Shown: one piece after another, positions 32,049-45,353 of the stretch
Position numbering within the stretch: position 1 is the stretch's first letter
Layout of the letters: every line of letters begins with the position of its first letter
From: Syntrophorhabdales bacterium
GTDB lineage: Bacteria; Desulfobacterota; Syntrophorhabdia; Syntrophorhabdales; WCHB1-27
Assembly: GCA_035541455.1 (NCBI GenBank)
Contig: DATKNH010000094.1
Location: 1-57,547 of the forward strand
Reading direction: 5' to 3'
Length of the DNA stretch: 57,547 bases
Position numbers and translations under genes: made by a program
The notes under the pieces: generated by a model
Told to the model about the DNA's origin: nothing
Databases searched by the model: none
What the model saw: the letters and a program-made list of their open reading frames with translations, nothing else

Positions 32049-34253
32049 ATGTCAAAGATAATTGCATCAGCGGCCATCAGAGGCGCGCAGAAAATCTTCA
32101 ATAAGGTCGAGACAAAGTACAAAGAGGTGCTCGAGAAGTATGGGCCCAACCAGGAGATAGGCTTCCCCAACACTGCCTACTACCTTCCGATCATCTATGC
32201 CATGACCGGCATCGGGGTCTCAAAGCTGGGAGAGTTTGATAAGATCCTCAGTCTCTGCAGGAAACTGATACCGTCTCCCGTCAGGGAAAAGACGCCGTTG
32301 CCGTATCTAGCGCCAGCGCTTGACGCCGGCATGGCAACGTTCTTCGTAGAGGAACTGTATGAGGCAATGCGGTATCTCGAAAACCCCAACTGCTATGTGA
32401 CCGGCGAGGACCCGACCGACGGGAATATCTGGCTGGGCGCAGCGAGCGACCTCATCTTCAGGAAAAGGGGCGTGGAGTTTGTTGACGGCACGGCCCCTGG
32501 ATTCGCTGCGATCGTAGGTGCCGCCCCTGACGCCCAGACAGCCGCAAAGATAGCGCTCGAACTCCAGGAAAAAAATCTGTACGTGTTCATGTGTGCCGAG
32601 AACAATGGAAAGCGTTTCTCGGAACAGCTCGTGGAGGCTGGCGTGCAGGTGGGTTGGCCCACAAGACTTGTCTCCTTCGGTCCTGATATTTACCAGGCAG
32701 TTTTTGCCATAGGCTTTGCGTGCCGTGTTGCCATGGCATTCGGCGGGGTCAAGCCGGGCGATTTCAGAAAGAACCTGATTTACAACAAAGACAGAACCTA
32801 TGCGTTCGTCATGGCGTTAGGCGAAGTCACTGACGAGTGGTACGCCAATGCGGCAGGGTGCATCAACTGGGGATTCCCGGCCATCGCTGACACGCCCATC
32901 CCGGAAGTGCTGCCCACGGGTATCTGTACGTATGAACATGTTGTATCAAACATTCCACACGATCACATCGTCCAGAAGGCAGTGGAAGTGAGAGGCTTGA
33001 AGGTGCAGGTTGCAAAAGTGCCTGTGCCTGTCTCTTACGGACCGGCGTTCGAAGGCGAGCGTGTGAGAGGCGAGGATATCTATCTCGAGATGGGCGGCGG
33101 GAAAACAGTCGCGGTTGAATGGACCACGACGAGGCGCATGGAAGAGGTTGAAGACGGCAGGGTAGAAGTGATCGGACCTGACGTAGGCAATGTTCAGGCG
33201 GGCACCCGGCTCCACTTCGCGATGGTGGCTGAGGTTGCCGGTCGCAACTTCCAGGAAGATTTCGAGCCGATCCTTGAGCGGCAGAATCACCATCTGATCA
33301 ACCAGGCCCAGGGTATCATGCACATAGGGCAGAGGGACATAGCCTGGATTCGTATCTCCAAGCAGGCAGTTGAGAAAGGCTTTAAGCTGGAACACATCGG
33401 CAAGATCATTCATGCCAAGTACCACCAGGACTTCGGAGCAATCTTTGACAAGATTCAGGTGAAGATCTACACGGACGAGCCCAAGGTCAAGGAGATCCTC
33501 GAACAGGCGAGGGCATCCTACAATCACCGTGATGCCAGAGTGGAGAACATGACGGACGAGTCGGTGGATACCTTCTATTCATGCACTCTGTGCCAGTCGT
33601 TCGCGCCCAGCCATGTCTGTGTTGTCGCTCCTGAGCGGACAGGGCTCTGCGGTGCCTATAACTGGCTGGACTGCCGTGCCTCGTACGAGATCAATCCCGA
33701 AGGTCCCAATCAGCCTATCCAGAAGGGAGAAGTGCTCGACGCCCGTTACGGACAGTTTAAGGGCGCAAACGACTTTGTCTACAAGGCCTCGAGACAGAAG
33801 GTCAACAATGTAAGCTTCTACAGCCTCATGGTTGATCCGATGACCACGTGCGGCTGCTGCGAATGTATCGCGGCTGTGCTGCCGATGGCCAACGGCATCA
33901 TGACCGTTGATCGTGATTATAGTGGAATGACCCCCTGCGGCATGAAGTTTACGACGCTGGCGGGTTCCGTGGGCGGTGGGGCGCAGTCACCGGGATTCCT
34001 CGGCCACAGTAAGTACAACATTACTCAGAGGAAGTTTCTGGTCGGCGATGGCGGTCTGGCACGCATGGTCTGGATGCCGAAGAGGTTGAAGGAGGAGTTA
34101 CACGACCGGCTGGTCAAGCGGGCCGAGGAGCTGGGCATACCGAACTTGATAGACATGATCGCCGACGAGACTGTGGCGACTACCGAAGACGAAGTGGTGG
34201 CCTACCTAACGGAGAAAGGTCATCCCGCACTTACGATGGATTCGATTCTGTAA
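32049..34253 (+). CDS. acsB: CO-methylating acetyl-CoA synthase
   Basis: A 734-residue ACS, close to the Moorella length of 729. The A-cluster ligands are intact: Cys512, Cys515, Cys524 and Cys534 for the [4Fe-4S] cluster (CTLCQSFAPSHVC and on), and the Cys601-Gly602-Cys603 motif for the distal nickel. The offset from the Moorella numbering is a constant six residues. It joins the methyl group from the corrinoid protein, CO and CoA into acetyl-CoA, or the reverse. GGAGGCGGAG precedes ATG 32049. The N-terminal domain that meets CODH is complete. Confidence 0.97.
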   Translation: MSKIIASAAIRGAQKIFNKVETKYKEVLEKYGPNQEIGFPNTAYYLPIIYAMTGIGVSKLGEFDKILSLCRKLIPSPVREKTPLPYLAPALDAGMATFFVEELYEAMRYLENPNCYVTGEDPTDGNIWLGAASDLIFRKRGVEFVDGTAPGFAAIVGAAPDAQTAAKIALELQEKNLYVFMCAENNGKRFSEQLVEAGVQVGWPTRLVSFGPDIYQAVFAIGFACRVAMAFGGVKPGDFRKNLIYNKDRTYAFVMALGEVTDEWYANAAGCINWGFPAIADTPIPEVLPTGICTYEHVVSNIPHDHIVQKAVEVRGLKVQVAKVPVPVSYGPAFEGERVRGEDIYLEMGGGKTVAVEWTTTRRMEEVEDGRVEVIGPDVGNVQAGTRLHFAMVAEVAGRNFQEDFEPILERQNHHLINQAQGIMHIGQRDIAWIRISKQAVEKGFKLEHIGKIIHAKYHQDFGAIFDKIQVKIYTDEPKVKEILEQARASYNHRDARVENMTDESVDTFYSCTLCQSFAPSHVCVVAPERTGLCGAYNWLDCRASYEINPEGPNQPIQKGEVLDARYGQFKGANDFVYKASRQKVNNVSFYSLMVDPMTTCGCCECIAAVLPMANGIMTVDRDYSGMTPCGMKFTTLAGSVGGGAQSPGFLGHSKYNITQRKFLVGDGGLARMVWMPKRLKEELHDRLVKRAEELGIPNLIDMIADETVATTEDEVVAYLTEKGHPALTMDSIL

Positions 34254-34260
34254 TGAAGGG

Positions 34261-34415
34261 GGCGACAGGTAGCGGCAACGCTTTAAAAGGGAAGATGGTG
34301 TAAATCCATCGCGGACCCGCCGCTGTAAGGGGGGACGGGAGCTCACGAAACCACTGGGTGTGTGGCCCGGGAAGGAGAGCTTGAGAATGAACCCCGAGCC
34401 AGAAGACCTGCCTGA
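34261..34415 (+). promoter_or_regulatory. Cobalamin riboswitch upstream of acsC
   Basis: The acsB-acsC gap (34254-34555) holds a cobalamin aptamer. It contains AAAAGGGAAGATGGTGTAAA, CGCGGACCCGCCGCTGTAA, the AACCACTGGGTGTGTGGCCC arm, GGGAAGG, and the closing GAGCCAGAAGACCTGCC. Outer stem CAGGT (34266-34270) pairs with ACCTG (34406-34410). Downstream (34431-34550) there are GC-rich hairpins but no T-tract. TCTCCT (34431-34436) is complementary to AGGAGA in the acsC ribosome site, hinting at translational control. Confidence 0.93.
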
Positions 34416-34555
34416 AGCCGTTATGTGCATTCTCCTCGAGGTTGGGAGCTCTGGCGAGTGAGGCTCGCGAGAGGGGTGGCTCCGTAGGCTTTTGTCCGCG
34501 GAGGGGCGACCGGGTAATCCGCGTGCGGGTGCCCAAAAACTGAAAGGAGACAAAC

Positions 34556-35893
34556 ATGGGACTTACAGGAATCCAGATCTTTAAGCTTCTTCCCAAGACC
34601 AACTGCGGGGATTGCGGTTCTCCGACGTGTCTTGCCTTTGCCATGGCTCTTGCGGCCGGTAAGGCAGAGCTTGAGAAATGCCCCTATGTGTCCGATGAGG
34701 CAAAGGAACAACTGTCGGAGGCGAGCGCGCCGCCGATCAGGCCTCTGACAGTGGGGACAGGAGAGTATGCCGTCAAGGTCGGCGGTGAAACAGTGCTCTT
34801 CAGGCATGAGAAGACGTTTTTCAATAAGCCGGGTCTTGCAATCCTTATTACGGATGCCACGGCCGATACTGAGGTAGAGAGACGCTTCGGAAAACTTGCT
34901 GAGCTGCAGTTCGAGCGTGTGGGCCTGAATTTGAGACCTGAACTGGTCGCGCTCAAGGATACTGGGAATAAAGAAAAGTTTCTGGGTCTTGTTAAAAAGG
35001 CAGCGGCCACTCCGTATGCCATCATCCTCATGTCAACGGACGCCGGCACAATGAAGGAAGCACTGGACATAGCAAAAGAGAAGAAGCCTCTGATTTATGC
35101 TGCAACAAAAGAAAACGCGGATGCATTCGGAGCGCTCGCCAAAGAGTGCGCCTGCCCTCTCGCAGTGAAGGGAGCGAACCTGGATGAGGTAAGTGCGCTC
35201 AGCGAAAAGCTGACGGGCATGGGGCTCAAGGACCTCGTCATCGATTCAGGCGCCCGGGACATAAAAGGAGCTTTCCAGGATCAGATTTTCGTCCGCAGGG
35301 CTGCACTGCTCAGCAAGTACAGGCCTTTGGGCTTCCCGACGATCACATTCCCCTGCGAGATGACGGACGATGTGATGAAGGAGACGCTGATCGCTTCTCT
35401 CTTTGTCGCAAAGTATGCGGGCATAATCGTATTGAGCGATTTTGAAGGAGAGAACGTTTTCCCGCTTCTTTTGGAGCGGCTCAACATCTACACTGACCCG
35501 CAACGGCCAATGACCACAGAACAGGGGATATACCCGATTAATAATCCTGACCAGAACTCGCCTGTGCTCGTGACCTGCAATTTCTCATTGACCTATTTTA
35601 TCGTGAGTGGCGAAATAGAAAACAGCAGGGTACCCACGTGGCTCTGTATCATGGATACCGAGGGGTTGTCGGTCATGACGGCCTGGGCGGCCGGAAAATT
35701 CGTGGGCGATGCGGTAGGCCCTTTCATCAAGAAGAGCGGCATTGCAGAAAAGGTTGCGCACAAGAAGATCGTGATCCCCGGCTATGCCGCAGGCATTATG
35801 GGAGATCTGGAAGAGGAGTTGCCCGGTTGGGAGATCATCGTGGGCCCGCGCGAAGCAGCTCATATACCGGCATTCTTGAAGCAGTGGAAATAG
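34556..35893 (+). CDS. acsC: Corrinoid/iron-sulfur protein large subunit (ACDS gamma)
   Basis: A 445-residue subunit. The N-terminal [4Fe-4S] domain has Cys-x2-Cys-x4-Cys (CGDCGSPTC) and a later Cys in ELEKCPYV. A TIM-barrel middle and a C-terminal corrinoid-binding domain follow. With AcsD it forms the methyl carrier between AcsE and AcsB. AAAGGAG precedes ATG 34556. It is the only gene in the cluster with a cobalamin riboswitch directly in front, although its own product is the cobalamin-type cofactor user. Confidence 0.96.
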   Translation: MGLTGIQIFKLLPKTNCGDCGSPTCLAFAMALAAGKAELEKCPYVSDEAKEQLSEASAPPIRPLTVGTGEYAVKVGGETVLFRHEKTFFNKPGLAILITDATADTEVERRFGKLAELQFERVGLNLRPELVALKDTGNKEKFLGLVKKAAATPYAIILMSTDAGTMKEALDIAKEKKPLIYAATKENADAFGALAKECACPLAVKGANLDEVSALSEKLTGMGLKDLVIDSGARDIKGAFQDQIFVRRAALLSKYRPLGFPTITFPCEMTDDVMKETLIASLFVAKYAGIIVLSDFEGENVFPLLLERLNIYTDPQRPMTTEQGIYPINNPDQNSPVLVTCNFSLTYFIVSGEIENSRVPTWLCIMDTEGLSVMTAWAAGKFVGDAVGPFIKKSGIAEKVAHKKIVIPGYAAGIMGDLEEELPGWEIIVGPREAAHIPAFLKQWK

Positions 35894-35989: not shown

Positions 35990-36874
35990 ATGGTACTGCG
36001 AATAGGAGAGAATCTGAACGTTATAGCGAAGAAAATCGGCGAGGCATTAAAGGATCGTAATCCTGCGCCCATAAGGGAGATGGCAGAAGCTGAAGCAAAA
36101 GCGGGCGTAGATCTCATCGATATCAACCTGGGGCCAGCCCGGAAGGCAGGGGCAGAATTGATGGAGTGGGTTGTCAAGACCGTTCAGGAAGTTGTGCCGA
36201 ACATACCCCTCTCCCTCGACACAACGAACGTAGAGGCGATGGAAGCCGGGCTCAAAGCCCATAAGGGTAGACCGCTGATCAACTCGGTATCGGCCAGGCC
36301 GGAACGCATGGAAGTTCTTGTTCCTTTGGCGCAGAAATACAAGGCGCCCTATATTGCTCTCACGCTCGGCGTTGAAGGAATTCCGAGAGACGCAAATGAG
36401 CGGGGCATGCTGGCGGCCGAGCACCTTGCGAAGGCTGCCGAGTTCGGCATTGGCGAGGACGATCTGTGGATAGACCCGATCGTGCTGCCCATCAATACCC
36501 AGCAGATTCAGGTCCAGGGCTGTACCGAGTTTGTCATGATGTTGAAGGATATCGCGCCTACGTGTAAATCCACCTGCGGTCTTTCGAACATTTCCAATGG
36601 AGCGCCGGGGCATCTCAGGGGAATCCTGAATCGCACGTATCTCATCATGTTGAAAAGGTACGGGATGTATTCCGCCATAGTCGATGCCTTTGACGCTGAA
36701 ATGGCAGCCATCTGCCAGGACAAGATGCCTGGGCTGGAAGCGCTGGTGCACAAGGTAATGGATGGTGAGCCGGTCGATATGGCAAAGCTCTCGAAAGAGG
36801 AGGTGGAGTACGTCAAGACTGCCCGCGTGCTGCTCGGGCAGACGCTCTACTCAGACTCATGGTTGGAGCTCTGA
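35990..36874 (+). CDS. acsE: Methyl-THF:corrinoid/iron-sulfur protein methyltransferase
   Basis: About 294 residues, a pterin-binding TIM barrel. Seen: MVLRIGENLNVIAKK at the N terminus, the pterin motif VDLIDINLGPARKAG, LSLDTTNVEAMEAGL, INSVSARPERMEVLVPLA, and STCGLSNISNGAPGHLRGILNRT. It moves the methyl group between N5 of methyl-THF and the cobalt of AcsC/AcsD. AAAAGGAGGAG precedes ATG 35990. It is probably co-transcribed with acsC, and it bridges the acs and hdr-met parts of the cluster. Confidence 0.96.
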   Translation: MVLRIGENLNVIAKKIGEALKDRNPAPIREMAEAEAKAGVDLIDINLGPARKAGAELMEWVVKTVQEVVPNIPLSLDTTNVEAMEAGLKAHKGRPLINSVSARPERMEVLVPLAQKYKAPYIALTLGVEGIPRDANERGMLAAEHLAKAAEFGIGEDDLWIDPIVLPINTQQIQVQGCTEFVMMLKDIAPTCKSTCGLSNISNGAPGHLRGILNRTYLIMLKRYGMYSAIVDAFDAEMAAICQDKMPGLEALVHKVMDGEPVDMAKLSKEEVEYVKTARVLLGQTLYSDSWLEL

Positions 36875-36900
36875 TACCGGCAGGGCGGTTTAAAAAGAGA

Positions 36901-36970
36901 TTGCGACCTGATAGAATATATTCTTATATATTAATGTTTGAATATGGCCCGGAGCAGGAGTGTTCCGGGC
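36901..36970 (+). promoter_or_regulatory. Possible hdr-met promoter and hairpin
   Basis: TTGCGA (36901-36906) with an AT-rich TATATA about 18 bases downstream looks like a promoter for hdrC onward. It is followed by a 7-bp perfect stem, GCCCGGA (36947-36953) with TCCGGGC (36964-36970), and then TGTTGTCTT, a weak T-tract. It could be an internal promoter, or an attenuator between the acs and hdr-met sections. Confidence 0.4.
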
Positions 36971-36992
36971 TGTTGTCTTGCGAGGGAGACCC

Positions 36993-37556
36993 ATGGATGA
37001 TGCGAGGAGTGGCCAGATGACCGGACCTGCAAGCGGGCCGGGCTTTTTAAGGGAGATGGAACAGAAGACGGGCGAGAACATCGCGGCGTGCTACCAGTGC
37101 TATCGCTGCACGAACGGTTGTCCTGCGCTCCCTGAGATGGATTTCTCACCCCACCGGCTGATGAGGTACGTGATCCTGGGCGAAAGGGAGAGAGTACTCA
37201 CCTCGAAGATGATCTGGTCCTGCCTGCAGTGCACCACCTGCAGTATCCGCTGCCCCAATGATATAGACATTGCCCTTGTGATCGACACGTTGCGGAAGAT
37301 TGCAGTCAAAGAAGGCAAAGCAAAAAATCTGGATACGTGGAAGTTCGACAATTACTTCCTCGACAGCGTGAAGAAGCACGGCAGGTTGTACGAAATAGAG
37401 ACGATCCTCAAGTACAAGATGGACAAGAAGAACTTCTTCGAGGATACAAAAATGGGCATGGGCATGATGAGGAAGGGGAGAATGGGGCTGCTCCCTCATA
37501 ATATAAAAGACAGAGAAGGCATGAAGGCCCTGTTTAAAAAGGCCCGAGGAGAGTGA
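36993..37556 (+). CDS. hdrC: Heterodisulfide-reductase-like subunit C
   Basis: About 187 residues from ATG 36993 (after GCGAGGGAG). Two [4Fe-4S] ferredoxin motifs are clear: CYQCYRCTNGCP (about 36-47) and CLQCTTCSIRCP (about 79-90). HdrC passes electrons from HdrA to HdrB. The C-terminal helical tail resembles that of other HdrC proteins. It is followed one base later by hdrB, so the two are translated together. In this context the final acceptor is likely MetV/MetF chemistry rather than CoM-S-S-CoB. Confidence 0.92.
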   Translation: MDDARSGQMTGPASGPGFLREMEQKTGENIAACYQCYRCTNGCPALPEMDFSPHRLMRYVILGERERVLTSKMIWSCLQCTTCSIRCPNDIDIALVIDTLRKIAVKEGKAKNLDTWKFDNYFLDSVKKHGRLYEIETILKYKMDKKNFFEDTKMGMGMMRKGRMGLLPHNIKDREGMKALFKKARGE

Positions 37557-37557
37557 G

Positions 37558-38418
37558 ATGGCGGCAACGCTTGCATATTATCCGGGATGCTCTCTCAAAT
37601 CGTCAAGCAAGTTCTACGAGGCGTCCATACAGAAAATTTTCGGGAGATACGGGATCAGACTCAAAGAGATCGATGACTGGTCCTGCTGCGGCGCATCGGC
37701 AGCACCAACAGTAGACGAACGGCTCGGCCATGCGCTCGCAGCGAGAAACCTGGCGCTGGCAGAGAAGGCGGAATGCGACCTCTTTGCCCCGTGTTCCGCT
37801 TGTTACAACAGGGCAAAGGTGACCAATGAGATGATCCGCTCTGATGCGGATTTGCAGAAGGAGATGAACAGCATCATCGAGCCTCTCCAGACGAGCGCCT
37901 CTGTTGAAGTGAAGAATATTATCGAAGTTCTGGACGATTACGTGGGAGTGGAGATACTGGCGCGCGACAGGAAGTACGATCTTTCCGCATTGAAAGTTGT
38001 TCCGTACTACGGGTGCGTGCTCACGCGGATGATGCGCGTCAAGCCGTACGATGACAAGGAGAACCCGGAGAGCATGGACAGGTTGCTTTTTGCGGCCGGG
38101 CTTAACGTGCTCCGTTGGCCCTTCAAGATGGAGTGCTGCGGCGCGAGCAAGACGCTTACCAACAAAGATATGACCCGGAGACTTTCTGACAGGATTGTGG
38201 ACATGGCCATCGTGCTTGGCGCCGACGCGATAGTGACGCCTTGCCCCTTGTGCCAGATGAATCTTGACCTTCTCCCTTCTTTAGGCAGAACCAAAGAGGC
38301 GCTCCCCGTGCTTTTCCTTTCGGAGGTGTTCGAGCTTTCCCTCTACGGTAAGATGCTGGGTGCCGCATCCCATATGATAGCCGCGGACACGTTGCTTTCG
38401 AAGGTGAAGGAGGCCTGA
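37558..38418 (+). CDS. hdrB: Heterodisulfide-reductase-like subunit B
   Basis: A 286-residue protein with two CCG domains. The first has YYPGCS, SCCGASAA and CSACYN; the second has YYGCVL, ECCGASKT and CPLCQMN. In HdrB such cysteines bind two non-cubane [4Fe-4S] clusters that do the two-electron chemistry. Both cysteine sets are complete. Bacteria lack the CoM/CoB substrate, so the natural partner here is unknown; the met genes at the end of the operon suggest methylene-THF reduction. It starts one base after hdrC. Confidence 0.93.
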   Translation: MAATLAYYPGCSLKSSSKFYEASIQKIFGRYGIRLKEIDDWSCCGASAAPTVDERLGHALAARNLALAEKAECDLFAPCSACYNRAKVTNEMIRSDADLQKEMNSIIEPLQTSASVEVKNIIEVLDDYVGVEILARDRKYDLSALKVVPYYGCVLTRMMRVKPYDDKENPESMDRLLFAAGLNVLRWPFKMECCGASKTLTNKDMTRRLSDRIVDMAIVLGADAIVTPCPLCQMNLDLLPSLGRTKEALPVLFLSEVFELSLYGKMLGAASHMIAADTLLSKVKEA

Positions 38419-38419
38419 T

Positions 38420-38770
38420 ATGGAGTTAGAGGAAAGGCTTGATTTCATAAAATCGTATGACCCGGAGGGCATGGAGAAACTGAAAAGGCTCCTCGATCGG
38501 AAGTCGTACCTCATGGATAAGAATGTGTACGGCGAGACATTCACCGAGCGGCAGTTCAGTCTGATTTTTGACCCCCTTCTGCGCGCAGGCTTTGACAGGG
38601 CCCGGATATTAAAAGCGCTTTCCGAGAAAGATGCCACGGTCCCCGCGCTCGCACAGGAGCTTTCTATGGATGAGTCGAGAACGTTCGACTACATGAAAGA
38701 TCTGCTCAAGCGAAATCTCGTCGAGATTGTCGGGTTCGAAGAAAGGCATCCCGTATATAGAAAGAGGTGA
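38420..38770 (+). CDS. Small helix-turn-helix-like protein between hdrB and hdrA
   Basis: A 116-residue soluble protein with no cysteines. The C-terminal half (VPALAQELSMDESRTFDYMKDLLKRNLVEIVGF) reads like a winged-helix fold. The N-terminal half is helical (LDFIKSYDPEGMEKLKRLLDR). No family is recognised with confidence. It starts one base after hdrB and ends nine bases before hdrA, so it is an integral operon member. It may be a structural or assembly subunit, or a local regulator of the Hdr-Met complex. Confidence 0.7.
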   Translation: MELEERLDFIKSYDPEGMEKLKRLLDRKSYLMDKNVYGETFTERQFSLIFDPLLRAGFDRARILKALSEKDATVPALAQELSMDESRTFDYMKDLLKRNLVEIVGFEERHPVYRKR

Positions 38771-38779
38771 TGAGGCAAC

Positions 38780-41700
38780 ATGGATAAGGTCGGTAAAGTA
38801 CTCGTTGTCGGCGGCGGCATTGGCGGCATGGAGGCCTCCCTCAACCTGGTAGAGGCTGGTTTCAAGGTCTATCTTGCGGACGAGAAGCCGAACATCGGCG
38901 GCAAAATGGCGCAGCTCGACAAGACGTTTCCCACGAACGATTGCTCTATGTGCATCATGGCACCGAAGCTGGTGGAGACAGGAAGAAACCCCAACATAGA
39001 GCTTCTCATGGCGAGCGAAGTGGTCGCGCTCGAAGGTGAGCCGGGTAATTTTACCGTCACGCTCAAACGGAGACCGCGAAGGATCATAAAAGAGAAGTGC
39101 ACCTCCTGTGGCCTCTGTGCTCCTCAATGTCCCCTTGAAGTGCCTGCGGATTACAACGAAGACCTCTCCCGCAGAAGCGCTGCCTATATCAGTTTCCCGC
39201 AGGCCATTCCATCCACCTATATGATAGACAGAGAGATCCCTCCCTGCGTGAACAGGTGCCCGGTCAATCTGAACGCGCGTGACTACGTGGGGCTCATTGC
39301 ACAGGGCAAGTACCTTGAATCGCTCGACGTGATTCGGGAAAGGCTGCCGTTTCCCGGTGTGATCGGCCGCATCTGCAACCATCCCTGCGAAAGTGTCTGT
39401 ATCAGGGGCGAGAAAGTTGATCAGCCAATCGCGATCTGCGCGCTGAAGAGATTCGTTGCTGATTACGAGATAGGCAAGAGAGAAATACCCGTCCCCGTTG
39501 CCGGCCAGGACAGGGGTAAACGCGTTGCCATTGTGGGCGGCGGTCCCTCCGGCATGGCGTGCGCTCTCGATCTGAGAAGGGCAGGCTTCGGAGTAACGAT
39601 ATTTGAGGCGTCCGGCAAATTGGGCGGCATGCTCTACTGGGGCATCCCTGCATACCGGCTTCCCAAAGACGTGCTCGAGCGCGAAACAGCACTGGTCGAA
39701 AAGGCGGGCGTCGAGGTTCGCTACAACATAAGGGTCGGGAAAGACATATCCCTGAAAGAGATTCACGAGAAATTCGATGCAGTCTATATCGGTTGCGGTG
39801 CCTCCGGCGGAAGAAGGCTCGGCATAGAAGGCGAGGACGCGCGGGGCGTGATGACCGGCATCGAGTTCCTGCGACTCTCCAATGAAAAGAAGCCCCTCCA
39901 GCTTGGGAAGAGGGTGATCGTCGTTGGCGGGGGAAATGTTGCTGTGGACGTTGCACTCACGGCCAAGCGTCTCGGGGTGGAAGATGTTCACATGGTCTGC
40001 CTCGAGCGCTGGGAAGAGATGCCCGCGAGTAAATCGGAACTGGAGCAGACACTGCAGGAAGGGATAAAGATCCACACTGCGTGGGGACCGAACATCATCA
40101 GGGCAGCGGACGGCAGCGTGAAAGGTATTGAGTTCAAAAGGTGCACCAACGTCTTTGACGAATTCGGCCGTTTCAGCCCCTGCTACGACGTGGATGTGGC
40201 CAGAGCTTTCAGCGCTGAGACCGTCGTCCTCGCGATCGGCCAGTCGCCCGAGACCGATTTCATGAAGGACCTGAGCAGCACAGAGCCTTTCCGGGGCGGA
40301 TGGATAAAGGCTGATGCTTGCACGCTGGAGACGGCGGCGAAGGGTGTTTTTGCCGGAGGCGATATTGTCACCGGACCGAGGATGGCGATCGACGCAATAG
40401 ATCAGGGGCAGAAAGCTGCCGAGTCAATAAAACGTTACCTGGAAGGAAGGGATCTCAGAGAGGGCAGGCTCGCACGCGAGGATGAGCTGGTTCTGCATGC
40501 GCCGCTGGATATCGAGCGAAAAGTTCGCGTGGCTATCCCTGCGATCCCGCTGGAACAGAGGACAGGCTTTGATGAAGTCGATCTGACTCTCGACGAAGCC
40601 GCAGCCAGAGCCGAGGCAGAGCGGTGCCTGAACTGCAGGAGATGTCTGGGGTGCAAACTCTGCGAAGAGGCGTGTAAACCGGAAGCCGTTAACTACCTGA
40701 TGGAGGCCACGGAAGAGAAGCTCAATGTCGGGAGTATCGTTGTTGCGGCGGGCCTCACCGAATACGACCCCTCATTGAAGCCGGAACTGGGTTACGGTCA
40801 GTACAAGAACGTAGTGACCAGCACAGAGTTCGAGCGGATACTCTCGGCAACCGGTCCTACCTGCAGCATCGTCATGCGTCCGTCTGACGGAAAGATCCCT
40901 AAGAAGGTTGCGTGGCTGCAGTGCGTGGGAAGCAGGGACAAGGTGCACGAATACTGCTCGTCGGTCTGCTGCATGTACGCCACCAAAGAAGCATTCATCG
41001 CGAAAGAGCATCAGCATGACCTGGAGCCCACTATTTTCTACATGGACGTACGCGCTTTCGGTAAAGGGTTTGACCAGTATTACGAGCGCGCCAAGCATGA
41101 GCACGGCATCCGCTATGTAAAATCGGCAATTTCAAGGCTCCTGGAAGATCCGAAGAGTAAGGACATCGAAGTCTTTTACGTTGATGAAGATGGTAACACC
41201 AAGTCAGAAATGTTCGACATGGTTGTTCTTTCGGTAGGCATGCGGCCCGCCGAACATCTGGCCAGGCTTGCCGGCGTGCTCGGGGTCGAGCTGAACGAAT
41301 ATGGTTTTGTGAAATCCTCGCCGCGCAACCCGTTGCTGACTACGCGTGAGGGCATTTTTGTGAGCGGGGCGTGCGAGTCTCCTAAAGACATACCGGAGAC
41401 GGTGACCCAGGCATCCGGTGCAGCATGCGAAGCTGCCAGCGTCATTGCAGAGGCGCGTGGCAAAAACCTTGTCATCAAAGAGCTGCCTGAAGAGAGGGAT
41501 GTGGCGAATGAAGAACCGCGCATCGGTGTCTTTGTGTGTGATTGCGGCGTCAACATAGCCGGTGTGGTCAATGTGCCCGAAGTTGCGGCGTACGCGAGGA
41601 GCCTGCCGAACGTGGTGATTGCAGATGAAAATCTTTTCACGTGTTCACAGGACACGCAGGAGAAGATGAAGAAGGTGCTGGACGAGCAGCGACTCAACCG

Positions 41701-43189
41701 TGTCATTGTTGCCTCCTGCTCGCCGAGGACCCACGAATTTCTTTTCAGAACAACGATCAGGGAAGCAGGACTCAATAAGTACCTGTTCGAGATGGCCAAC
41801 ATACGTGACCAATGTTCCTGGGTGCATCAGAAAGACAAGGAGAGCGCAACCGAGAAAGCCAAGACCCTTGTGCGTATGGCTGTCATGAATGCCAACGAGA
41901 TCAAGCCGCTCAAAGAGATCTCGGTCAACGTGAACAAGAAAGCGCTCGTACTGGGCGGCGGCCTTGCTGGCATGACAGCTTCCCTGAAACTCGCCAACCA
42001 GAATTTCGAAGTTTTTCTTGTGGAGAAAGAAGCAGAACTGGGTGGCAACATGAGGCATGTCTACGCCACGGTTGACGGCCTCGACACGCAGGAATTCCTC
42101 TCCAACCTCATAGAGCAGACTACGGCGCATCCGTTGATCCACGTGATGACAGAAACCAGGGTGGCAGACCATTCGGGGTTCAAGGGCAATTTCGAAACAG
42201 GCCTGGTGCATGCTCCCACGAAAAAGGAAACGAAGTTGCAGCACGGCGTTGTGATTGTTGCGACAGGTGGTGAGGAGTTTAAGCCTCGCGGCCTCTACGC
42301 GTACGGCGAGGACGAGCGCGTGATGACCCAGATGGAACTGGAAGAAAAGCTGGTCAAGCGCGCACTTCCCAGGGCAGACAGGGTAGCCATGATCCAGTGC
42401 GTGGGTTCGCGAAATGATGAGCGCCCCTATTGCAGCAGAATCTGCTGTTCCACGGCGATCAAGAACGCCCTGCATTTAAAAGAGCAGAACCCCGAACGGG
42501 ACGTGGTTATCCTCTACAGGGATATCATGACCTATGGATATCTGGAAAAATACTACCTCAAGGCGAGACGGGAAGGCGTACGCTTCATCAGATATGATAA
42601 AGAGAGACCGCCTGTACTCAATGCAGCAAATGGCCGGCTGGTGCTCTCCTGCTTCGACCCTTCCATCATGGAAGAATTGCAACTCGAGGCTGACCTGCTG
42701 GCGCTCTCGTCCGCGGTTATCCCCAGGGAGAATGCAGACTTGGGCACGCTACTGAAATGCGCCAGGACCAACGAGGGCTTCTTCCTCGAAGCACACATGA
42801 AACTTCGTCCGGTCGACTTTGCATCCGACGGCCTTTACCTGGCCGGGCTTGCCCATTCCCCGAAAAATATCAGGGAGAGTATAACGCAGGCCGAAGCGGC
42901 CGTTGCAAAGGCATGTACCATACTAGCCAAGGAGAAGCTCATGGTCGGCGGCGTCGTGGCTGACGTCACGGCCGACAAATGCGCTGCCTGCCTGAGCTGC
43001 GTGAGAGTCTGTCCGTACCACGTCCCGGTCATCAATGAGAAGGGCGAAGCGGAAATAGACGTGAGCAAATGCAAGGGTTGCGGCACCTGTGTGTCAGAGT
43101 GCCCGGCCAAGGCGATTGAGTTGATGCATTACAGGGACGTGCAGATCGTTGAAAAAGCAGGCGCACTCGTGGCGCGAGGAGCACAGTGA
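38780..43189 (+). CDS. hdrA: Giant HdrA-GltD-HdrA fusion flavoprotein
   Basis: A 1469-residue fusion. Residues 1-150: HdrA N lobe with the FAD motif VVGGGIGGMEASL, the HdrA Cys pair in NDCSMC (55, 58) and a ferredoxin motif from Cys107. Residues about 150-600: a GltD/NfnL-type NAD(P)H oxidoreductase with CVNRCPVN, CNHPCESVC, the FAD motif AIVGGGPSGMACAL (about 250), the NAD(P) motif VIVVGGGNVAVDVAL (about 380) and GVFAGGDIVTGPRMAIDAI. Residues 617-640: a Cys-rich motif, then the HdrA C lobe (to about 890). Residues about 912-1469: a second complete HdrA (GVFVCDCGVNIAG, LGGGLAGMTASL near 1053) ending in two [4Fe-4S] motifs. Three flavin sites in one chain suggest flavin-based bifurcation with NAD(P)H. 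Confidence 0.92.
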   Translation: MDKVGKVLVVGGGIGGMEASLNLVEAGFKVYLADEKPNIGGKMAQLDKTFPTNDCSMCIMAPKLVETGRNPNIELLMASEVVALEGEPGNFTVTLKRRPRRIIKEKCTSCGLCAPQCPLEVPADYNEDLSRRSAAYISFPQAIPSTYMIDREIPPCVNRCPVNLNARDYVGLIAQGKYLESLDVIRERLPFPGVIGRICNHPCESVCIRGEKVDQPIAICALKRFVADYEIGKREIPVPVAGQDRGKRVAIVGGGPSGMACALDLRRAGFGVTIFEASGKLGGMLYWGIPAYRLPKDVLERETALVEKAGVEVRYNIRVGKDISLKEIHEKFDAVYIGCGASGGRRLGIEGEDARGVMTGIEFLRLSNEKKPLQLGKRVIVVGGGNVAVDVALTAKRLGVEDVHMVCLERWEEMPASKSELEQTLQEGIKIHTAWGPNIIRAADGSVKGIEFKRCTNVFDEFGRFSPCYDVDVARAFSAETVVLAIGQSPETDFMKDLSSTEPFRGGWIKADACTLETAAKGVFAGGDIVTGPRMAIDAIDQGQKAAESIKRYLEGRDLREGRLAREDELVLHAPLDIERKVRVAIPAIPLEQRTGFDEVDLTLDEAAARAEAERCLNCRRCLGCKLCEEACKPEAVNYLMEATEEKLNVGSIVVAAGLTEYDPSLKPELGYGQYKNVVTSTEFERILSATGPTCSIVMRPSDGKIPKKVAWLQCVGSRDKVHEYCSSVCCMYATKEAFIAKEHQHDLEPTIFYMDVRAFGKGFDQYYERAKHEHGIRYVKSAISRLLEDPKSKDIEVFYVDEDGNTKSEMFDMVVLSVGMRPAEHLARLAGVLGVELNEYGFVKSSPRNPLLTTREGIFVSGACESPKDIPETVTQASGAACEAASVIAEARGKNLVIKELPEERDVANEEPRIGVFVCDCGVNIAGVVNVPEVAAYARSLPNVVIADENLFTCSQDTQEKMKKVLDEQRLNRVIVASCSPRTHEFLFRTTIREAGLNKYLFEMANIRDQCSWVHQKDKESATEKAKTLVRMAVMNANEIKPLKEISVNVNKKALVLGGGLAGMTASLKLANQNFEVFLVEKEAELGGNMRHVYATVDGLDTQEFLSNLIEQTTAHPLIHVMTETRVADHSGFKGNFETGLVHAPTKKETKLQHGVVIVATGGEEFKPRGLYAYGEDERVMTQMELEEKLVKRALPRADRVAMIQCVGSRNDERPYCSRICCSTAIKNALHLKEQNPERDVVILYRDIMTYGYLEKYYLKARREGVRFIRYDKERPPVLNAANGRLVLSCFDPSIMEELQLEADLLALSSAVIPRENADLGTLLKCARTNEGFFLEAHMKLRPVDFASDGLYLAGLAHSPKNIRESITQAEAAVAKACTILAKEKLMVGGVVADVTADKCAACLSCVRVCPYHVPVINEKGEAEIDVSKCKGCGTCVSECPAKAIELMHYRDVQIVEKAGALVARGAQ

Positions 43190-43617
43190 TGGGAACATTC
43201 GAGCCGGAAATTATCGCATTCTGCTGTGAGCACTGAGCGTACACTGCCGCGGACCTGGCAGGTTCGATGCGACTCAATTATCCGACGAACGTGAAGGTGC
43301 TCAAAGTGCCTTGCACAGGAAGAGTGGATGTAATCCACATGCTCAAGGCATTTGAGGATGGCGCTGATGGGGTTTACCTGGCAGGCTGTCTGGAAGGAGA
43401 ATGCCATTTCCTGGTGGGTAACCTCAGGGCCAAGAAACGTGTCGGCTATGCCAGGCAACTGCTGGATGAATGCGGTGTCGGTGCAGAACGTTTGGCCATG
43501 TACAACCTGTCTTCAGCCCAGGGGCAGCGTTTTGCAGAGATTGCCCGGGAGATGACGGAAAAGATCAGGCAGTTGGGACCGAACCCCACGAAGAAGAGGG
43601 TGAGCAGTGAGCAGTGA
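43189..43617 (+). CDS. mvhD: MvhD-family [2Fe-2S] protein with in-frame UGA (selenocysteine)
   Basis: 142 residues if TGA at 43234-43236 is read as selenocysteine (residue 16). The reading frame starts at ATG 43189, overlapping the hdrA stop (TGATG) with GAGGAG eight bases upstream. It gives MGTFEPEIIAFCCEHU, then AYTAADLAG, then MRLNYPTNVKVLKVPCTGRVD. MvhD family members have a cysteine exactly where the UGA falls (family pattern CCNWC-SYxGADLAG), and selenocysteine variants are known as VhuD. Downstream cysteines are intact (PCTGR, AGCLEGECHF). Standard gene calling would start at ATG 43267 and lose 26 residues. MvhD links electron donors to HdrA. Confidence 0.9.
43244..43265 (+). promoter_or_regulatory. 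Candidate bacterial SECIS element in mvhD
   Basis: Just after the UGA the RNA can fold as GGACCT (43251-43256) with AGGTTC (43260-43265), a 6-bp stem with one G-U, and an apical loop GGC lying 20 bases beyond the UGA. G in the first loop positions and this distance fit the bacterial SECIS pattern bound by SelB. An alternative, CTGCC (43244-43248) with GGCAG (43257-43261), is mutually exclusive. Confidence 0.6.
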
Positions 43618-43742
43618 GCAGTGGAAAGATGGAGTAAGTTTGCGGCACCGCACAACATATCGTTTGAAGGCGTGCAATAGAGTTGCGCATACAACGGTCG
43701 GGTTGGTTGTTCTCACTCAACTGCTCACTGTTTACTGCTCAC
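43600..43742 (+). repeat. Long-range 23-bp inverted repeat between mvhD and metV
   Basis: A tandem GTGAGCA GTGAGCA GTGAGCA GT run (43600-43622) overlaps the last codons and stop of mvhD. Its near-complement, ACTGCTCACTG then TTT then ACTGCTCAC, lies at 43720-43742. In RNA all 23 positions pair, two as G-U. The stem ends in TTTTG immediately before the metV ribosome site AAGGAG. The 97-base loop shows no ORF of note. Confidence 0.75.
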
Positions 43743-43761
43743 TTTTGACAAGGAGTCAGAT

Positions 43762-44430
43762 ATGATCGTAGCGAATAGAAAACCCTTTGAAGAGCTTGTC
43801 GAATTCATCAAACCGTACTCGAAAATACTGCTCCTGGGTTGCAATGAGTGTGTTACCGTCTGCGCAACAGGCGGAGCCAAAGAAGTGGCAATACTTGCCT
43901 CCGAGTTGAAGATGCACAGGGAAAAGGAGGGAAGGCCGATAGAAATCACCGAGCACGTGATCGAGCGCAATTGTGATCCGGAGTATGTCGAGAGCCTCAA
44001 GAGTGTTATTGGCGACACCGAGATGATCCTCTCGATGGCATGTGGTTGCGGCATCCAGTTCGTAGCTGAGCATTACAGAGAGAAGCTCGTCCTGCCCGCG
44101 GTGAATACGACATTTGACGGCGTGACCGAAGAACACGGTGTCTGGGCAGAGCGTTGCCTCGGATGCGGCAACTGCATTCTCGATAAAACACTCGGTATAT
44201 GCCCGGTCACCCGCTGTGCGAAAAGCATCTTCAACGGGCCGTGCGGCGGGTCTCAGGGTGGAAAGTGCGAGGTGAACAAGGATATTCCATGCGGTTGGCA
44301 GCTCATCGTCGACAGGTTGAAGGAGATGAACATGCTCGACAGGTATCTGGAGATACAGCCGCTTAAAGACTGGTCGACGAGCCGCGATGGGGGCCCGAGA
44401 AAACGGGTAAGGGAGGATCTGAAGATATGA
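43762..44430 (+). CDS. metV: MetV, methylene-THF reductase zinc/Fe-S partner
   Basis: A 222-residue MetV (methylene-tetrahydrofolate reductase C-terminal family). It has an N-terminal Cys-containing segment (LLLGCNECVTVC), ACGCGIQ in the middle, and the cysteine-rich C-terminal signature CLGCGNCILDKTLGICPVTRCAKSIFNGPCGG ... CGW. MetV pairs with MetF in acetogens and carries Fe-S or zinc sites. AAGGAG precedes ATG 43762. Its 3' end overlaps metF by four bases (ATGA), indicating coupled translation and a MetVF complex. Confidence 0.94.
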   Translation: MIVANRKPFEELVEFIKPYSKILLLGCNECVTVCATGGAKEVAILASELKMHREKEGRPIEITEHVIERNCDPEYVESLKSVIGDTEMILSMACGCGIQFVAEHYREKLVLPAVNTTFDGVTEEHGVWAERCLGCGNCILDKTLGICPVTRCAKSIFNGPCGGSQGGKCEVNKDIPCGWQLIVDRLKEMNMLDRYLEIQPLKDWSTSRDGGPRKRVREDLKI

Positions 44431-45353
44431 GCGCGAGCAATCTGGAGAAAATCCTGAAAAGCGGGAATTTCGCCGTTACAGGCGAATGCGGTCCCCCGAG
44501 AGCAGCGGACGCGGAAGTGGTCAGGAAGAAAGGGGCTCACCTGAAGGGATACGTGGACGGGGTGAACGTAACCGACAACCAGACGAGCGTGGTAAGAATG
44601 TCCAGCATGTCAGCCTCACTTGTTCTGAAGGAAATGGGCTTCGATCCTATTATGCAGATGGTCTGCAGGGACAGAAACAGAATTGCGATACAGAGCGATA
44701 TTCTGGGAGCGTCTGCATTGGGCATCAATAATCTTCTCTGTCTTTCCGGGGACCATCAGCGCTTCGGTGATCATCCCACGGCAAAGAACGTGTACGATAT
44801 AGATTCAATGCAGCTCATCCAGACGGTCAAAAGGCTTCGCGATGATGGCAAATTCCTGGGCGGCGAAGAGGTGAAAGGCACGCGGCCCGATCTCTTTATC
44901 GGATGCGCTGAAAACCCCTTTGCCGATCCCTTTGAGATAAGGGCCATGCGTTTGGCAAAGAAAGCAGCAGCCGGAGCACAGTTTGTGCAGACCCAGTGCA
45001 TCTTCAACGTGCCGAAGTTTGAAAAATGGATGGAGATGGTGCGGGATCTTGGCGTGCATGAGAAGGTTTACATCCTCGCGGGCATAACGCCATGCAAGTC
45101 CATCGGCATGGCACGGTACATGAAAACTTCTGTGCCCGGTATGGACGTGCCCGATGAGTTGATCGATCGTCTGAAGGGTGTTCCAAAAGAGAAGGTCGCG
45201 GAAGAGGGGATAAAGATCGCTGTTGAGATGATCGAGCAGGTCCGGCAGATCAAAGGTGTTGCCGGGGTCCACATCATGGCCATTGAATGGGAAGAGAAAG
45301 TTCCGGAGATGGTTAAGGCAGCGGGGCTTTATCCCAGACCAAGTGTGAATTGA
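44427..45353 (+). CDS. metF: 5,10-methylenetetrahydrofolate reductase
   Basis: A 308-residue TIM-barrel flavoprotein. MetF family segments are FAVTGECGPPRAAD near the N terminus, VDGVNVTDNQTS, the FAD-site stretch around LLCLSGDHQRFGDHP, FVQTQCIFNVPKFEKWM, and the C-terminal GVAGVHIMAI. It interconverts methylene-THF and methyl-THF. Last gene of the hdr-met unit; a terminator follows 37 bases on. With HdrABC-MvhD and MetV upstream, it likely belongs to the six-subunit type of complex described from Moorella. Confidence 0.95.
   Translation: MSASNLEKILKSGNFAVTGECGPPRAADAEVVRKKGAHLKGYVDGVNVTDNQTSVVRMSSMSASLVLKEMGFDPIMQMVCRDRNRIAIQSDILGASALGINNLLCLSGDHQRFGDHPTAKNVYDIDSMQLIQTVKRLRDDGKFLGGEEVKGTRPDLFIGCAENPFADPFEIRAMRLAKKAAAGAQFVQTQCIFNVPKFEKWMEMVRDLGVHEKVYILAGITPCKSIGMARYMKTSVPGMDVPDELIDRLKGVPKEKVAEEGIKIAVEMIEQVRQIKGVAGVHIMAIEWEEKVPEMVKAAGLYPRPSVN

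Follow-up and report, generated by a model that had tools for sequence, protein, structure and literature searches.

Cobalamin riboswitches belong to the most widespread classes of riboswitch known. In the translational switches of E. coli btuB and env8HyCbl, the P13 stem holds the ribosome site. The published targets of the RF00174 family fall into four categories in a large comparative study of RNA regulons, namely B12 synthesis, transport, cobalt uptake and B12-independent isozymes (PMC3766115). In a reporter study, all 38 of the 38 functional cobalamin switches repressed, including the switch at V. parvula mutA, a gene for a B12-dependent enzyme, and many switches of the class-I type accepted several cobamides (PMC9600662). 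The sole natural activating case reported is A. halodurans cobT, whose corrinoid riboswitch builds P13 from a strand that also belongs to an inhibitory element (PMC10653944). In Listeria, an antisense RNA of pocR stands under a cobalamin riboswitch with a net effect of ON, as described in PMC11575231.

Here we analyzed a cobalamin riboswitch that directly precedes acsC, the gene for the corrinoid iron-sulfur protein, in a window of 57,547 nt (the whole stretch of DNA analyzed). acsC fits none of the four published categories, which describe common targets and not a structural requirement. Among open-licence PMC papers we found no report of acsC as the target of a cobalamin riboswitch, and a report elsewhere is possible; main-text passages on E. 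limosum, S. sphaeroides and A. bakii place cobalamin switches at B12 genes, with no mention of one at acsC. The aptamer family is known; its target gene here and its position within the operon appear to be new.

Results

A cobalamin aptamer in the acsB-acsC spacer

The first-pass annotation of this DNA had proposed a cobalamin riboswitch directly before acsC at 34254-34556, and the covariance-model search bore this out: positions 34250-34429 (+) match RF00174 over its full length (model positions 1-189 of 189) with 117.2 bits and an E-value of 8.8e-29, the gathering score of the family being 31.5 bits. The aptamer occupies the front part of the spacer, with its 3' end 126 nt upstream of the acsC start codon (Table 1). 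All genes of the operon lie on the + strand in the order acsV-like, cooC-like, folD, acsD, acsA, acsB, riboswitch, acsC and acsE-like, followed by hdr and met genes; one of these later genes, between the hdrB-like and hdrA-like genes, encodes a small ArsR-like HTH protein. Eight genes of the operon lie downstream of acsC, which places the aptamer in mid-operon.

Table 1 Features of the acsB-acsC region, in positions of the window
Feature	Position	Strand	Basis and remarks
acsB (acetyl-CoA synthase / CODH-ACS alpha-beta)	32049..34253	+	NCBIfam NF040764, 1090.6 bits, cutoff 800; upstream of riboswitch
Cobalamin riboswitch aptamer (RF00174)	34250..34429	+	cmscan; 4-nt overlap with acsB stop codon; kept in two relatives
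P1 5' strand	34258..34270	+	Rfam consensus structure mapped on the sequence; partner 34410-34422; starts 5 nt past acsB stop
L5 kissing-loop sequence ACCCG	34315..34319	+	Rfam alignment; published consensus UCCCG (PMC10653944)
TCTCCT, candidate anti-Shine-Dalgarno	34431..34436	+	Exact complement of acsC Shine-Dalgarno; pairs with it at P ~1.0 in the computed ensemble
Candidate P13 hairpin	34435..34458	+	34435-34440 with 34449-34450 and 34455-34458; extendable to 34431/34463; loop GUUGGGAG
Diverged copy of dispersed ~78-nt hairpin repeat	34450..34530 (end approximate)	+	blastn to repeat consensus over 34450-34510, 75% identity, E 1.7e-4
Shine-Dalgarno AGGAGA of acsC	34545..34550	+	Sequence; AAGGAGAC kept in all three leaders
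acsC (corrinoid iron-sulfur protein, gamma subunit; putative regulated gene)	34556..35893	+	NCBIfam NF003195, 629.6 bits; Pfam PF03599 and PF04060
acsE-like, hdrC-like, hdrB-like, ArsR-like HTH, hdrA-like, mvhD-like, metV-like, metF-like	35990..45353	+	NCBIfam and Pfam; part of operon after acsC

By its sequence and predicted structure, the aptamer is an ordinary class-I member of RF00174. L5 reads ACCCG in this genome and in its congener and GCCCG in the third carrier, bog_1155 (see below), near the UCCCG consensus. The suggestion of the annotation that a different corrinoid form is sensed gained no support here; the structure is the ordinary one, and for many switches of this type more than one cobamide serves as ligand (PMC9600662).

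The annotation had also noted the lack of a T-tract, and no intrinsic terminator was found on the + strand in 33900-34700, so that such a terminator was rejected as the output of the riboswitch. No sigma-70-like promoter was found in this interval either; therefore, the riboswitch is most likely intercistronic. The genome holds two cobalamin riboswitches, one before acsC and one before cobU, and the cobU switch has a 12-bp intrinsic terminator followed by TTTT. Because the acsC switch lacks a terminator, unlike the cobU switch, translational control is the likeliest output judging from the sequence, in line with the pairing at the ribosome site noted in the annotation. That acsC is under working, cobamide-responsive translational control of either sign is a reading in which we have good confidence.

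Conservation within one family

The riboswitch lies directly upstream of acsC in 3 of the 3 AcsC-bearing genomes of the family (four family genomes were examined). These are this genome, its congener Chersky.21_67 (AcsC 90% identical to the query) and bog_1155, a relative of another genus (AcsC 79% identical). In these three genomes of two genera the aptamer is full length and scores 116-119 bits, at a distance of 52 to 126 nt from acsC. The three acsC aptamers show changes on both sides in 9 of the 51 consensus pairs, and standard pairs occupy 119 of the 153 cells (51 pairs in three aptamers). They are 64-75% identical to one another, versus 49-62% when compared with the other riboswitch copies that these genomes carry. 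The identical layout in two other assemblies rules out chance or misassembly as the source of the arrangement.

Outside the family the arrangement was not encountered. AcsC is present in 41 of the 46 genomes of the order, and a search at E 1e-5 found the riboswitch upstream in 3 of these 41 only, all of the same family, leaving 0 of the 38 that lie outside it. None was found within ~700 nt upstream of acsC in 60 genomes sampled across the rest of the phylum, for which 60 upstream regions were checked directly (one shortened by a contig end), nor at 16 AcsC loci farther removed, chiefly from Chloroflexi. Because a pattern search of 80 AcsC loci had a sensitivity of 8 of 11, covariance-model searches were run to back it. 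The survey of relatives suggested in the annotation thus returned an arrangement that is conserved, but narrowly distributed. Given its presence in every AcsC genome of the family and its absence from the other genomes surveyed, the riboswitch was probably recruited once, in the family ancestor, and kept by selection.

The 60-region phylum set gave a single riboswitch hit, ~12 kb upstream of acsC (genome G144, L238 14215-14404 (-)). It was rejected as an acsC case and taken as a likely ordinary uptake switch because it precedes a gene whose translation reads like a FecCD/BtuC-like permease. The riboswitch and this gene stand beside the acs operon, and genes for corrinoid uptake thus seem to cluster with Wood-Ljungdahl genes in that genome. 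bog_1155 holds further cobalamin riboswitches with other neighbors. One, with a terminator-like hairpin (L087/L136 863-1066 (+)), is followed by genes for a small ferredoxin-like protein and an aldehyde ferredoxin oxidoreductase-like protein, another unusual target; a second (L089/L137) is followed by a gene for a short peptide and one for CbpB, a radical SAM maturase (TIGR04163, 652 bits).

In related genomes of the order, the acsB-acsC spacer measures 40-550 nt and contains various unrelated inverted or palindromic repeats. Since such unrelated insertions are common there, the spacer is tolerant of insertions and a frequent insertion site. We looked in the long spacers for a degenerate ancestral riboswitch and found none, only other repeats. 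The varied content of this spacer, together with a dispersed repeat that sits in the leader in this genus, would suit a non-functional relic, that is, a riboswitch copy that landed in an insertion-collecting spacer and is now decaying. We regard this as improbable, since the aptamers are full length in two genera and show compensatory changes, whereas loss of the core would be expected at 79-90% AcsC identity.

A dispersed hairpin repeat in the leader

Past 34449, the leader consists mostly of a diverged copy of the dispersed repeat, a point absent from the annotation, and not of riboswitch or expression platform. The repeat consists of three hairpins over ~78 nt (consensus TCTAGCGAGCACGGCTCGCGAGAGGGGGAGGCTCCATGTGGCTTTGCCACTGGAGGGGGCGACGTGAGCCCCAGTAAT) and is present at least 40 times in this genome and at least 41 times in Chersky.21_67, with 20 copies in bog_1155 and 4 in the remaining family genome; no Rfam family was reached for it in the stretches searched. 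Positions 34435-34483 are 90% identical to the leader of the congener. The acsC leader of bog_1155 lacks the repeat; across the family, therefore, the switch cannot depend on it. Among the intergenic copies of this genome, 24 of the 32 have the same orientation as the downstream gene, and many end just before the ribosome site of that gene.

Repeat copies also lie in frame inside protein-coding genes (L139 1666-2802 (-), L145, L168, L170 and others), where they encode SSEHGEREGEAPAALPREGATRAP-like peptides. Palindromic elements inside coding genes are known from Rickettsia, which the in-frame copies resemble, here in an anaerobic Syntrophorhabdales-like lineage. One in-frame copy lies within the gene for HgcA (L139 1666-2802, -; 410 bits), and the genome encodes this mercury-methylation corrinoid protein above the NCBIfam cut-off.

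Candidate P13, masking of the ribosome site and the sign of the switch

All three leaders carry, at a conserved position just downstream of the aptamer, a CTCC-rich stretch and then a candidate L13, which lies in TTGGGA in the two congeners and in TCGGGA in bog_1155. In this genome, UGGG at 34443-34446 would face CCCG of L5; across the three leaders UGGG, UGGG and CGGG could form 4 pairs with L5, of which three are G-C and one is G-U in the two congeners. CGGGT at 34511 and at 34526, exact complements of L5 that belong to the repeat, was rejected as L13, since the congener is without any CGGG. In each genome a P13 stem can be modeled around the candidate L13, with a 5' strand that overlaps the stretch complementary to the Shine-Dalgarno (SD) sequence. 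The candidate P13 does not include the SD itself, which lies ~85 nt downstream in this genus and ~20 nt downstream in bog_1155.

The pairing of TCTCCT with the acsC ribosome site, pointed out in the annotation, stands as an exact complement of 6 nt (TCTCCT/AGGAGA; 5 nt in bog_1155), but a 6-nt SD complement arises in 11% of the dinucleotide shuffles for this genome and 16% for the congener, so that, taken alone, it is not beyond chance (P 0.11-0.16). The accessibility of the SD in the computed ensemble is 0.02 and 0.13 in the two congeners versus 0.50 and 0.35 in shuffled leaders, and fractions of 0.007 and 0.047 of the shuffled leaders, respectively, are as closed as observed or more so. The computed leader masks the SD with or without the aptamer, the fold with an enforced aptamer having been computed for the leader of this genome alone. 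When P13 is forced, the helix between anti-SD and SD is lost in both congeners and the SD becomes wholly or partly unmasked. Forming P13 costs ~8 kcal/mol in this genome with the aptamer folded and 12-18 kcal/mol in the leader-only folds of the two congeners, in each case before any kissing or ligand energy, as the fold energies ignore pseudoknots, ligand and ribosomes.

On these folds, we lean narrowly and tentatively toward an ON switch that would work by competition between the anti-SD and P13. Several observations count against this reading: P13 is energetically disfavored without ligand, the kissing pairs are few, and when partial transcripts of the two congeners are folded without ligand, TCTCCT can base-pair with the 5' strand of P1, which is OFF logic. 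In a classical translational OFF switch, cobamide would fold the aptamer and free TCTCCT from the P1 5' strand, and TCTCCT would then hide the acsC SD; its purpose may be to raise the amount of AcsC apoprotein under cobamide scarcity or to trim a corrinoid sink when cobamide is plentiful. The partial-transcript folds suit this mechanism, as does the base rate of 38 repressing switches in 38 (PMC9600662), yet in both congeners the SD is already hidden when the full-length leader is folded without ligand, which is the wrong default for it, and the SD lies outside the candidate P13, unlike the btuB and env8 style. In bog_1155 the SD is half open by default (accessibility 0.44), and forcing P13 closes it, a behavior that points to a sign opposite to ON. 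We consider the OFF switch almost as probable as the ON switch, each at less than even confidence.

The full-length, prefix and constrained folds thus disagree between the genera on the sign, and therefore we do not take the sign from folding as settled. The folds accordingly do not establish the ON switch that the annotation had offered as one option, and its premise that an OFF switch would make little sense here is weakened, as the V. parvula switch before a B12-dependent enzyme gene represses (PMC9600662).

Beyond P13 the leader has diverged completely between the two genera, so that the SD need not be the output. The output could instead be transcription or mRNA stability, with the level of the acsC-to-metF half of the operon set in the spacer by Rho-dependent polarity or by RNase cleavage. 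The mid-operon place of the aptamer, with eight genes downstream of acsC, would suit such an output; with the intrinsic terminator absent, we judge it unlikely.

Discussion

We propose the following working model, which builds on the leader sequences and their computed folds. A class-I cobalamin riboswitch would have been recruited into the acsB-acsC spacer in the family ancestor, and the pool of adenosyl-cobamide would set the translation of acsC separately from the upstream acsD-acsA-acsB, perhaps including the downstream acsE-hdr-met genes via coupling or polarity. In the default state, TCTCCT would hide the acsC SD. With cobamide bound by the aptamer, L5 (ACCCG) would kiss the P13 loop (UGGG), and P13, whose 5' strand would come out of the TCTCCTCGAG stretch that also holds the anti-SD, would thereby release the SD. 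Since the 5' strand of P13 overlaps the anti-SD stretch, P13 and SD masking would be mutually exclusive, and bound ligand would turn acsC on. Taken as a whole, a natural ON, terminator-free, translational mid-operon corrinoid riboswitch, which makes AcsC synthesis conditional on its cofactor and adjusts it independently of CODH/ACS, is a conceivable though rather doubtful outcome. A switch before acsC would tie a central carbon-fixing (or acetate-oxidizing) enzyme directly to the supply of its cofactor.

The acsC switch compares with the known systems as follows. First, it shares with the cobU switch (RF00174) of the same genome a full-length aptamer, the L5 core CCCG, the CCACTG...GGGAAGG core and the GAGCCAGAAGACC junction, and it differs from usual RF00174 members in preceding the gene of a corrinoid-carrying protein, inside an operon and without a terminator. 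Second, like btuB and env8HyCbl it has no terminator, and ribosome access is its probable output; in contrast to them, the acsC SD lies outside the P13 stem that the kissing loop would stabilize. Third, the pocR system of Listeria likewise couples a B12-dependent pathway to B12 supply through a cobalamin riboswitch, but indirectly, via an antisense RNA, whereas the acsC switch stands in cis before a structural gene. Fourth, V. parvula mutA also has a cobalamin riboswitch upstream of the gene of a B12-dependent enzyme; this switch was tested as repressing, is probably terminator based, as are 37 of the 38 functional switches, and serves the methylmalonyl-CoA mutase pathway (PMC9600662). At last, A. 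halodurans cobT resembles the ON model of the acsC switch in that P13 competes with an inhibitory element by a shared strand, and differs in that cobT works by an intrinsic terminator, while the acsC leader contains no terminator that shares the P13 strand and its sign is predicted (PMC10653944). Should the acsC switch prove to be ON, it would join cobT (PMC10653944) as the second cis-acting corrinoid riboswitch in nature known to us to activate, and it would be the first that acts on translation.
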